Shown: piece after piece, positions 15,324 to 35,932 of the stretch
Layout: each line of letters begins with the position of its first letter
Numbering within the stretch: position 1 is the first letter of the stretch
Virus record (IMG/VR): IMGVR_UViG_3300029309_000125
Location: 1 to 35,932 of that record
Strand: one strand, 5' to 3'
DNA length: 35,932 nucleotides
DNA from: a virus
Translations under genes and position numbers: made by a program
The notes under the pieces: generated by a model
The model's database searches: none
What the model was told of the DNA's origin: nothing
Seen by the model: only the letters and a program-made list of their open reading frames with translations

Positions 15324-15352
15324 TTGACAAGATATATAACTAAATGTAAATC
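15324..15352 (+). promoter_or_regulatory. Candidate promoter of the riboswitch unit
   Basis: TTGACA (15324-15329) is followed after 17 bases by TAAATC (15347-15352), a weak -10. It lies seven bases after the stop of the previous gene and a few bases before the riboswitch, so the riboswitch-peptide-terminator unit would be transcribed on its own. Confidence 0.5.
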
Positions 15353-15363
15353 TATGTCATAAC

Positions 15364-15431
15364 TCGTTCAACCTACATGGTCGGAAGTAGCAGAAAATCT
15401 GTGAAGGAACGCTAACATTGGGAGGCCATCA
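15364..15431 (+). promoter_or_regulatory. Glutamine-II riboswitch (glnA / Downstream-peptide RNA)
   Basis: The leader contains CGTTC (15365-15369) pairing with GAACG (15407-15411) as P1, the conserved CGGAAGTAG (15382... 15390, reading ggtcggaagtag) and GAAGGAACG (15403-15411), and a short P2 hairpin CAGA/TCTG (15391-15394, 15398-15401). These are the hallmark elements of the glutamine-II riboswitch class, known in marine cyanobacteria, their phages and marine metagenomes, where it usually precedes a short peptide ORF. Here ATG 15432 follows a GGGAGG site (15420-15425). A CCT at 15372-15374 could pair with AGG in that site, in line with glutamine repressing translation. The RNA family match is by eye. 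Confidence 0.8.
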
Positions 15432-15488
15432 ATGGAAGTTATCCTTTATTATCGAGGAGTAGCATACAAGAAAATCCTAAAGAGGTAG
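15432..15488 (+). CDS. 18-residue YRGV micropeptide under riboswitch control
   Basis: ATG at 15432, six bases after GGGAGG, opens 18 codons: MEVILYYRGVAYKKILKR. The YRGV-x-Y core resembles the short DUF4278-type proteins (YRGVxY) that follow glutamine-II riboswitches of the Downstream-peptide kind. A terminator follows ten bases after the stop. The function is unknown. The complete promoter, aptamer, ribosome-binding site, ORF and terminator unit is strong evidence that it is expressed. Confidence 0.75.
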   Translation: MEVILYYRGVAYKKILKR

Positions 15489-15635
15489 TATGCGAATGTG
15501 TCCCATTTCGGTGGGACATATTTTTATACCCATTTGCTTACTAGCCTTTCTTTTAATTTCTGCATTATCATACTTATCTACTTCTACTATACATTCTTTT
15601 CCTGATTCCTTGTGAACAATACGATACATAGACAT
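15477..15635 (-). CDS. Possible 52-residue convergent small protein
   Basis: Minus-strand ATG at 15635 with GGGAG about four bases upstream opens 52 codons (MSMYRIVHKESGKECIVEVD at the N-terminus, NAEIKRKASKQMG later). It lies on the opposite strand across the terminator and overlaps the end of the 18-codon gene by 12 bases. The good ribosome-binding site supports it. The overlap with the terminator weakens it. Confidence 0.35.
   Translation of the reverse strand: MSMYRIVHKESGKECIVEVDKYDNAEIKRKASKQMGIKICPTEMGHIRILPL
15499..15526 (+). terminator. Rho-independent terminator of the rightward unit
   Basis: TGTCCCA (15499-15505) pairs with TGGGACA (15512-15518) around tttcgg, a stable seven-base stem, followed by tatttttat. 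It ends the riboswitch unit and shields the convergent late genes. On the minus strand there is no T run. Confidence 0.85.
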
Positions 15636-16408: not shown

Positions 16409-16581
16409 TATGTACCTACTTTCTTTTGTGCTTTTTTATGTGCTTGTGTAAACGTCTTACCAGCTAACATTTCTTTAGTCATCATATCCATATGTTTTTT
16501 GCTATGATGCTTTGAATGTTTTTTCATAGTATCTTGTTGACGCTTGGTTAATTTTTTTGTGAATTTTGTTTTCTTTTTCAT
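16408..16581 (-). CDS. 57-residue Lys/His-rich small protein
   Basis: The ATG at 16581 forms TAATG with the preceding stop. The frame runs further upstream to a TTG at 16605, which seems less likely. The residues include KLTKRQQDTMKKHSKHHSKK and GKTFTQAHKKAQKKVG. A K-L-T-K-R-Q opening with a HSKHH centre matches small conserved proteins seen in marine phages. No function is known. Confidence 0.65.
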   Translation of the reverse strand: MKKKTKFTKKLTKRQQDTMKKHSKHHSKKHMDMMTKEMLAGKTFTQAHKKAQKKVGT

Positions 16582-16844
16582 TACCATTTTACCTTGTTTG
16601 CCCAATATGCTGCAGATGACTTACCTTTAGCTATATTCTTTCTATGGCGTGCTTTAAATGACTTAGCTCGTTTAGTCATAGTACGATCTCCTGTCTTACC
16701 TTGTTGACCAAATCGAATTGTTTTTGGTTTACCATTAACAACAGTAACCACTACATGAGATTTAGTTGGATGATTAGGTGTACGTTTTGGTTTATCGATA
16801 CCACTAACTCCAGCTCTTTTAATACTTGCTGTATATTTACCCAC
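16581..16844 (-). CDS. Basic 87-residue conserved phage protein
   Basis: The protein begins MGKYTASIKRAGVSGIDKPK and has a C-terminal element KSFKARHRKNIAKGKSSAAY followed by WANKVKW. This RHxKNI-x-KGK-x-SAAYWA-x-KVKW pattern is shared by many marine myo- and podoviruses. It is strongly basic and may bind nucleic acid in the virion. Its start overlaps the 79-residue gene and its end the next. Confidence 0.75.
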   Translation of the reverse strand: MGKYTASIKRAGVSGIDKPKRTPNHPTKSHVVVTVVNGKPKTIRFGQQGKTGDRTMTKRAKSFKARHRKNIAKGKSSAAYWANKVKW

Positions 16845-17274: not shown

Positions 17275-17426
17275 TACTTACCTAGCTTTGTTTTAATACT
17301 TACTACTAAATATATTATAGTTAATACAGATATTACAAATGATAACAATGGATTAATTGCTTGTAAATTCCAACTGCTTATAAAGCCTACTGTTCCTACC
17401 AAACTCTTTTCAATACAATCATTCAC
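17274..17426 (-). CDS. 50-residue single-span membrane protein, holin-like
   Basis: GTG at 17426 overlaps the stop of the PEP-CTERM-like gene (GTGA). The peptide has a polar start (VNDCIEKSLV), then SSWNLQAINPLLSFVISVLT and a long hydrophobic segment IIYLVVSI with a basic end (KTKLGK). This SWN-x-x-x-INP-x-LSF layout with one span is common in small holin-like proteins of marine phages. A lysis function is possible but unproven. Confidence 0.55.
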   Translation of the reverse strand: MNDCIEKSLVGTVGFISSWNLQAINPLLSFVISVLTIIYLVVSIKTKLGK

Positions 17427-18028
17427 GACATTTTCCTTTTAGCTATTAATAAACCTGCACCACCTAGTAGTATCAAGCTTATAGCTTGTGCTTCAGGTAT
17501 AATACTTAATGGCTGATTACTTGTTACTGTAAAATCTACTGTACCTACAACGTATGGATCATAACTAGATATAACTGCTACTAACTGATTATGTATCTGT
17601 ACATCATCTAAATAAAAATACAATCCCTCAGGACTATTCTCGTTGCTGTCATCATCTTCATCAAACAATGAAAGCTGTACTGACCCACTACCAAACCCAA
17701 CAAAGGCAGACTCTTCTATTTCATATAAATAAAGGTATGGGTCATTAAAATTAAAGTCAGGGTTACTACTACCTAAATCAGCATTATAGTTATCAAAAGC
17801 CAGGGTTGCATAACCATCTGTTTGTATATGAAATATATCATAATAGAATGCTTCCTGGTCTACATAAGTAACATTGTTTTCTGTAAGTGTAGCTTCTAAA
17901 TCATATACATATAAATCTGCTTCTGATTTCATAGCTGATGCTAAAAATAAAATTATAAATATAAGAACAATCCATATAACTTCTATACGATTCCATAATT
18001 TTCTTATTAATTTTTCTTTTATATTCAT
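17423..18028 (-). CDS. Secreted protein with PEP-CTERM-like sorting tail
   Basis: The ATG at 18028 overlaps the previous stop (ATGA); a GTG five codons earlier is less likely. The 201-residue protein has a basic N-terminus, a hydrophobic stretch (VIWIVLIFIILFLASA) and a cleavage-like MKSEA, which together form a good signal peptide. A beta-rich, acidic body follows. The end reads IPEAQAISLILLGGAGLLIA followed by KRKMS: a P-E-A motif, one membrane helix and a basic tail, the architecture of PEP-CTERM sorting signals handled by exosortase in Gram-negative bacteria. A phage gene with such a tail is unusual. Its role on the host surface is unknown. Confidence 0.7.
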   Translation of the reverse strand: MNIKEKLIRKLWNRIEVIWIVLIFIILFLASAMKSEADLYVYDLEATLTENNVTYVDQEAFYYDIFHIQTDGYATLAFDNYNADLGSSNPDFNFNDPYLYLYEIEESAFVGFGSGSVQLSLFDEDDDSNENSPEGLYFYLDDVQIHNQLVAVISSYDPYVVGTVDFTVTSNQPLSIIPEAQAISLILLGGAGLLIAKRKMS

Positions 18029-18171
18029 TTCTTTTTTATCCACTTTATAAGTTTAAATATCTTCCAATGTCTTGGCATAAACATACTCAACGTACATATG
18101 AATCCACCTAATCCAATACAGATACCTGTAAGGTGTGGCTTTATATGTTCTATGATTATATCAAAGTGCAT
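18025..18171 (-). CDS. 48-residue single-span membrane protein
   Basis: ATG at 18171 overlaps the stop of the 179-residue gene as TAATG. The peptide has a hydrophobic middle (LTGICIGLGGFICTLSMFM) flanked by charged ends, with a strongly basic tail (KLIKWIKKK). One transmembrane helix with the positive end on the C side is likely. Holin or surface-related function is possible. Confidence 0.5.
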   Translation of the reverse strand: MHFDIIIEHIKPHLTGICIGLGGFICTLSMFMPRHWKIFKLIKWIKKK

Positions 18172-35832: not shown

Positions 35833-35932
35833 CGATAACTTACAGAGGTCTTGAAAAGGTTATCTCTTTCGTTAATAAATTTTGTACTAAAAGTAAATCT
35901 TAACTGTCAAGCTAAAAAATTACAAATCATCT
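35833..35932. repeat. Right copy of terminal overlap (circular closure)
   Basis: This is the second copy of the 1-100 overlap, with one mismatch at 35834. It contains the same candidate promoter (rightmost copy at 35881-35910) and the last 13 bases of the scaffold gene (35920-35932). It is an assembly or permutation overlap rather than a separate locus. Confidence 0.9.

Follow-up and report, generated by a model that had tools for sequence, protein, structure and literature searches.

The stretch of virus DNA analysed here (IMG/VR record IMGVR_UViG_3300029309_000125, 35,932 nucleotides, hereafter the window) carries, where its early and late genes converge, a small unit that we interpret, with a probability of about 0.6, as a self-contained glutamine-responsive micropeptide gene, in which a translational ON switch would control a peptide bearing the YRG motif of DUF4278. 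This interpretation is directly supported by the class of the aptamer, the covariation of its helices, the coding selection on the open reading frame (ORF), the conservation of a hairpin around the start codon and the stand-alone layout. That a phage senses the glutamine of its host and answers with a micropeptide is plausible. The parts of the unit, and the gene that faces it, are the following:

15324-15352, plus strand: promoter-like box (TTGACA at 15324-15329, 17 nt, TAAATC at 15347-15352)
15363-15415, plus strand: type 1 (glnA) glutamine riboswitch aptamer, RF01739, with covariation in P2 and P3
15365-15369/15407-15411, plus strand: aptamer helix P1 (CGTTC/GAACG)
15371-15373/15379-15381, plus strand: aptamer helix P2
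15390-15394/15398-15402, plus strand: aptamer helix P3
15403-15447, plus strand: start-codon hairpin, candidate expression platform (z -3.66; in 13 of 13 leaders of subfamily i, the window's own)
15420-15425, plus strand: Shine-Dalgarno site GGGAGG, 6 nt before the ATG
15432-15488, plus strand: ORF of 18 codons, MEVILYYRGVAYKKILKR, a single-YRG, DUF4278-like micropeptide
15499-15527, plus strand: intrinsic terminator (stem TGTCCCA 15499-15505/TGGGACA 15512-15518, then the tail TATTTTTAT)
15477-15635, minus strand: convergent 52-aa gene from the ORF list, at the end of the late strand

The unit would function as follows. Its own promoter would drive a short transcript that has the type 1 aptamer at its start. 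As long as glutamine is absent, the first codons of the ORF (GAA GTT ATC CTT) would be base-paired with the 3' strand of P1 and with the conserved C behind it, so that the AUG would be locked inside a long hairpin. With glutamine, P1 would be held closed, which would block the outer part of this hairpin and make it easier for ribosomes to start. The product, made when glutamine is plentiful, would be a basic peptide of 18 residues with the YRG motif from the N-terminus of DUF4278, and it would either adjust the nitrogen metabolism of the host or compete with host YRG proteins.

The genome around the unit is that of a podovirus. A direct repeat of at least 60 nt is common to both ends of the record (3-62 and 35835-35894), so the genome is probably complete; IMG/VR classes the record as linear. 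Between 8805 and 15317 lie the early and replication genes, which point rightward; the late genes point leftward. The cassette closes the early strand, at the place where the two groups converge. A head-tail connector and the tail tubular proteins A and B were recognised (phrog_332, phrog_394 and phrog_376), together with a DnaB-like helicase and an initiation protein for replication, while the largest ORFs encode a tail protein of 768 aa and products of 882 and 2115 aa without a Pfam match. The preliminary description had spoken of a T7-like podovirus devoid of photosynthesis genes. The portal and tail-tube genes are indeed podoviral and no recognisable photosynthesis gene was seen among the ORFs scanned, but no T7-type single-subunit RNA polymerase gene was found in the window, which makes "T7-like" a loose term. 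The nearest structural relatives among phage records are pelagiphage podoviruses: HTVC203P, HTVC024P, Skadi and Greip have homologues of the portal, tail-tube, capsid and terminase genes in the same order, but at only about 25-36% protein identity and with different replication genes. None of these four genomes matches any Rfam family at the gathering threshold, and no glutamine riboswitch was found in them. Among the marker genes that may hint at the host, pelagiphages are indicated by the tail tube, a Puniceicoccales phage by a late protein of 142 aa, and roseophages and cyanophages by a basic protein of 87 aa. We also observed that the product of the gene at 17423-18043 (minus strand) ends in PEAQAISLILLGGAGLLIAKRKMS, which resembles a PEP-CTERM sorting signal after a secreted-type sequence and which, if real, is a possible host clue; Pfam and NCBIfam did not report PEP-CTERM in this product.

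The covariance models assign the aptamer at 15363-15415 to the type 1, and not the type 2, glutamine riboswitches. In a scan of the whole window, RF01739 matches there with 45.7 bits (cutoff 35, E 4.8e-7) over the full model (1-53), the result is unchanged when the region alone is scanned, and this is the single Rfam family found in the 35,932 bases. The unit had been described as glutamine-II, the class of RF01704 (Downstream-peptide), and this has to be corrected: a search of the window record with RF01704 yields zero candidates when E-values as high as 10 are allowed, and the family is also absent from an all-family Rfam scan of the region at E up to 1. That a riboswitch of the glutamine class is present was correct, and so were the elements given for it, namely P1 (CGTTC/GAACG) and the conserved blocks CGGAAGTAG (15382-15390) and GAAGGAACG (15403-15411); the core CGGAAGTA...GAAGGAACGC is intact. 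Among 37 distinct aptamers, the outer three pairs of P2 are formed in all 37 and those of P3 in 36-37, and pairing is kept through A-T/T-A and G-C/C-G exchanges to an extent that exceeds all 500 shuffles. Compensatory changes are thus seen in P2 and P3, while P1 is invariant across the set by construction of the search. Given the score and E-value of RF01739 and the covariation in P2 and P3, the aptamer is not a chance resemblance, and it would be expected to bind L-glutamine. Some aptamers of subfamily ii (loci L233, L367 and L384) carry an insertion of about 40-50 nt in P2, with an extra hairpin, and retain the conserved core.

The relatives of the unit were collected with two patterns. A DNA pattern built on the conserved blocks found at least 120 viral stretches, and a second one, combining the end of the aptamer with an E[VI][TI]LxYRG peptide, found 55 stretches in IMG/VR, which together with the window make 56 loci in three subfamilies. 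Subfamily i, to which the window belongs, has peptides of the form MEVIL[TY]YRGVAYKKILKR (16 loci, 9 distinct ORFs); subfamily ii has MEVTLNYRG[AS]TYVKVIKLDK and similar (24 loci), and subfamily iii M[KR]E[VI]TLVYRGV[KT]YTKKV and similar (16 loci). The peptides of all 56 loci have 15-20 residues (one ORF runs into the end of its contig), and these are the smallest natural versions of the YRG motif in the present data set. The pattern of substitutions marks the 18-codon ORF as a gene under coding selection. Indeed, the variable codons of the 9 distinct ORFs of subfamily i comprise 5 with synonymous changes only against 1 that changes the residue; the corresponding counts are 13 and 2 in subfamily ii, and 5 and 6 in subfamily iii. 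Across 16 different peptides, the Met, the Glu, the Tyr-Arg-Gly and the second Tyr are invariant. The window's ORF contains YRGVAY and its peptide is basic, so that the YRGV peptide of 18 residues that had been proposed as the riboswitch product is borne out as a genuine one, and we expect it to be produced. The match to the covariance model, the ORF and the P1 pairing, the loss of any of which had been named beforehand as speaking against the unit, all survive. A DNA search of phage records returned no close relative of the window, and for the 541-nt neighbourhood of the cassette it gave weak unrelated matches only; tblastn of the peptide against phage records returned nothing, a query of 20 residues being too short for this to be informative.

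This coding selection also bears on the notion that the peptide is a decayed host gene, a functionless DUF4278 fragment left with its riboswitch, which the correspondence of the peptide to the N-terminus of longer DUF4278 proteins could suggest but which is extremely improbable in view of the purifying selection across many diverged phages, the retention of the hairpin and of the promoter-like box, and the existence of three separate subfamilies.

The kinship of the peptide with DUF4278 is confined to its start, where the N-terminal LxYRGxxY motif of this family is found, downstream of a glutamine riboswitch. In an hhalign comparison, the micropeptide profile aligns with the start of the DUF4278 profile with a probability of 88.8 and an E-value of 2.5e-6, over 11 columns only. 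The Pfam model of DUF4278 (PF14105) does not match the 18-mer alone, being 57 positions long and thus longer than the peptide, nor does it match the 20-aa relatives. It does match longer phage peptides that have several YRG motifs and follow the same aptamer, with 36.9 and 26.5 bits (cutoff 25.3). The second YRG motif about 20-30 residues further on is absent, as the ORF of the window ends at residue 18, and a search for DUF4278 among solved structures gave no convincing match. In cyanobacteria, DUF4278 forms the N-terminal part of IF17, an inactivating factor of glutamine synthetase, in which it is dispensable for inhibition but stabilising (PMC6316151). The target of the peptide may thus be something other than glutamine synthetase. 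Most likely, the peptide is a small binding partner and would adjust host nitrogen metabolism, or would compete with host YRG proteins; we propose this role in nitrogen control because of the kinship with DUF4278 and of the sensor, and the function that had been given as unknown is narrowed to that of an N-terminal DUF4278 motif.

We now turn to the hairpin that could connect the aptamer to translation. It is made of an outer helix (GAAGGA 15403-15408 with TCCTTT 15442-15447, that is codons 4-6), which overlaps the 3' strand of P1, of a middle helix (GCT 15411-15413 with AGT 15437-15439), which takes C15412, and of an inner helix (CATTGG 15416-15421 with TCAATG 15429-15434), which holds the AUG. 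C15412 is the base directly 3' of P1, and we take it to make a pair that is important in the ligand-bound state, as in the published type 1 structure. In the predicted folds, the hairpin and P1 are mutually exclusive. The stretch 15401-15449 folds at -16.3 kcal/mol (z -3.66), with none of 200 shuffles equally stable, and the same fold is found in the 13 distinct leaders of subfamily i, all with z below -2; in subfamily ii, 10 of 13 leaders have z below -2, and in subfamily iii folding does not form the hairpin. The codons tell a similar story: in subfamily i, codons 2-5, which lie inside the hairpin, show zero synonymous variation, while codons 6-9, 11 and 13 vary. ATC CTT, which pairs with the P1 strand, and the neighbouring GTT are thus invariant even at synonymous sites. 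The last codons of the peptide are also invariant in subfamily i, but there the convergent gene overlaps them.

When the aptamer is forced in the folding model, the unpaired fraction of the AUG rises on average from 0.01 to 0.28, and it goes up in 14 of 14 leaders, while the openness of the Shine-Dalgarno site falls from 0.71 to 0.48, and the interval from the Shine-Dalgarno site to the AUG shows no average change. In subfamily ii the same constraint moves the AUG from 0.07 to 0.11 only, which is almost no switching. The aptamer is predicted to be less stable than the alternative fold by about 6 kcal/mol. At equilibrium, weak ligand binding could not make up for this difference, and switching would therefore need to occur while the RNA is being transcribed. 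The conserved start-codon hairpin therefore suggests a translational ON switch acting during transcription, which the folding model backs only partly. The same numbers leave room for the opposite direction, an OFF switch in which the closed aptamer would leave the inner CATTGG/TCAATG hairpin in place and allow new pairings to cover the Shine-Dalgarno site, so that glutamine would lower translation. The fall in openness of this site would fit it, as would the type 1 aptamers found in marine proteobacteria ahead of amt, glnA and gltD, genes that one would expect glutamine to repress by feedback. We consider this direction a serious rival but unlikely, since the AUG is predicted to open in all 14 leaders of the subfamily and since both cyanobacterial cases examined by experiment, type 1 in gifB and type 2 in Prochlorococcus, are ON, the gifB switch of Synechocystis having been shown to be a translational one (PMC6316151).

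The ON switch would be part of a unit that is self-contained, as had been proposed: the promoter-like box, the aptamer, the ORF and the terminator are all present. The TTGACA promoter of the preliminary description holds for its -35-type box, which is exact and conserved in the subfamily, but its -10 box, TAAATC at a spacing of 17 nt, is weak and was not reported by a consensus promoter scan of the region. Of the distinct upstream regions, those with TTGAC number 13 of 13 in subfamily i (against 5.7% of shuffles), 9 of 16 in subfamily ii and 0 of 8 in subfamily iii, a distribution that fits a stand-alone promoter in subfamily i, often one in subfamily ii, and expression within an operon in subfamily iii. 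The GGGAGG site lies where it had been reported, and a site of the GGAG/GAGG type precedes the ATG in nearly all relatives. The strong terminator is likewise upheld: its hairpin folds at -18.6 kcal/mol and its stem shows compensating variation in the relatives, even if a simple terminator scan of the region did not report the hairpin at 15499-15518. The final codons of the peptide and the terminator fall within the 3' end of the convergent 52-aa gene, and homologues of this gene (67-73% identity) occupy the same place in other loci of subfamily i, where the cassette stays on the early strand with the 52-aa gene at its end. Subfamily ii is mixed: where late-gene homologues are within reach, some loci have them mostly upstream of the cassette and co-directional with it, and other loci have them on the other side, so that both orientations of the unit occur at the same junction. 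Most loci of subfamily iii have the cassette right behind a homologue of the window gene at 16581-16844, with another gene next.

This layout argues for the peptide as the product, because there is no plus-strand gene behind the terminator to control and because the early/late junction of related phages has the unit now on one strand, now on the other. A leader peptide that controls a downstream gene through its own translation, by attenuation or translational coupling, would suit subfamily iii, in which the next gene begins about 10-40 nt past the peptide stop with no terminator between them. It is nonetheless very unlikely, as the window and the rest of subfamily i have a terminator and no plus-strand gene beyond it, and as subfamily ii mostly has GC-rich inverted repeats directly after the stop. 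One could also imagine that the RNA itself is the product, interfering with the end of the convergent late operon or acting as a small RNA, with the ORF as an incidental feature; the transcript would indeed end inside the convergent gene at 15477-15635, which the last codons overlap. Such a role is highly improbable, given that three subfamilies preserve the Shine-Dalgarno site, the start and the frame, with synonymous changes, and that the unit is found on the opposite strand at the junction in subfamily ii and within a late operon in subfamily iii.

The aptamer of this micropeptide gene is also found in bacteria. The same pattern occurs at cyanobacterial DUF4278 genes and, in marine proteobacteria, at genes for an ammonium transporter, glutamine synthetase and a glutamate synthase subunit (identified by eye from the protein starts). 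The cyanobacterial glutamine aptamers are located mainly before DUF4278 genes (PMC6316151). RF01739 was found in 106 of 162 genomes from the order of one Pelagibacteraceae MAG, and DUF4278 in 0 of these 162, in 0 of 299 genomes sampled from its phylum, and in 16 of 59 cyanobacteria. A 224-kb SAR86 single-cell contig (L338, about 4446-4160, minus strand) has tandem type 1 aptamers and a 56-residue ORF with three YRG motifs among ordinary bacterial neighbours, and a contig from a Porticoccaceae MAG (L298) is arranged in the same way. DUF4278-like peptides with a type 1 switch thus seem to occur outside cyanobacteria. This distribution, including the SAR86 exception, keeps cyanobacteria among the possible hosts of the window phage.

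In viruses, a survey with the exact aptamer pattern and a simple ORF rule, which biases it by sequence, found that among the matches listed 110 of the 113 ORFs behind type 1 aptamers have at most 70 residues (median 38), that all 113 encode a net positive charge (median +7), and that 23 contain YRG. The pattern suggests that phages have used this strategy repeatedly and that the window is not an isolated curiosity. The small basic ORFs (loci L001-L120) look like several unrelated families, for instance MDRFTxWCxKxLIKxH..., MTLWTxYCR..., MNYRDFELARKK... and a GTSGY family. The latter is also seen in cultured pelagiphages such as HTVC019P, HTVC011P and HTVC027P (L416-L420 and L422), where no Rfam riboswitch was found beside the GTSGY gene. 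We can tentatively imagine, as a possibility that remains rather doubtful, a general glutamine-sensing effector system of marine phages, in which type 1 switches would control the making of tiny basic proteins from several unrelated families and the YRG peptide would be a minimal DUF4278 unit acting on host nitrogen control. If so, the riboswitch would signal to the phage when glutamine suffices to make small basic effectors.

Among the viral loci examined, a type 2-like aptamer goes with the two-YRG peptides of cyanophages. In Prochlorococcus phage P-HM2, PHM2_181 (L421, about 940-1126) encodes a 41-residue, two-YRG, DUF4278-like protein annotated as a "hypothetical protein", and a type 2-like core, GGACGCAAAAGCCGACTGAAGGAACG, is found just upstream of it. 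RF01704 scores at best 21.1, 16.4 and 13.6 bits on viral type 2-like records (L124, L159 and P-HM2; cutoff 33), and this model may miss viral members whose conserved blocks are visible in the sequence.

Glutamine riboswitches in phages and switches before short peptides are already known. The former have been described in Melnitz, Mosig, Prochlorococcus phage AG-345-P14 and T4-like cyanophages (PMC9004378, PMC9964418), and the type 2 Downstream-peptide motif, known since 2010, precedes ORFs of 17-100 residues (PMC2864571). The Melnitz switch is linked to the tmRNA gene and the others are reported without a micropeptide, whereas the window has a stand-alone micropeptide gene in a clade of 36-kb podoviruses. 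A close parallel is the type 1 switch (RF01739) of cyanobacterial gifB and other DUF4278 genes, with the same aptamer class before a product that starts with the YRG motif. There the ON direction has been shown (PMC6316151), while for the window we propose it. The window unit further differs in lying in a podovirus, in encoding 18 residues with one YRG, IF17 having 149 (PMC7760959), and in having a hairpin at the start codon to which codons of the peptide itself contribute. The picocyanobacterial type 2 switches (RF01704) are similar in structure and also lie upstream of short ORFs, including DUF4278 genes, but belong to another class. Tiny proteins tied to the nitrogen state, as proposed for the peptide of the window, include IF7/IF17 and the 23-residue archaeal sP26, which regulates glutamine synthetase (PMC7760959); the phage peptide, however, resembles only the N-terminus of IF17, a part that is not needed for inhibition. 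For the combination of a type 1 switch with a single-YRG micropeptide, for its start-codon hairpin and for the small-basic-protein pattern, we found no report in the searchable literature, which mostly excludes subscription papers.

Riboswitches have rarely been described in phages, and the literature cases that we found are in the tmRNA region or in cyanophages. Here, a known amino-acid sensor is tied to one of the smallest conserved phage proteins, and some phages appear to make tiny proteins in response to the nitrogen state of the infected cell. Both a direct reading of the host nitrogen status by a phage and the role of the YRG motif of DUF4278 are now testable. A last observation concerns the 62-kb contig IMGVR_UViG_3300030090_002183 (L049/L386), which contains two different copies of the cassette, 35580 bases or about one genome length apart, and which is for this reason probably a chimera or a concatemer of two related phages.
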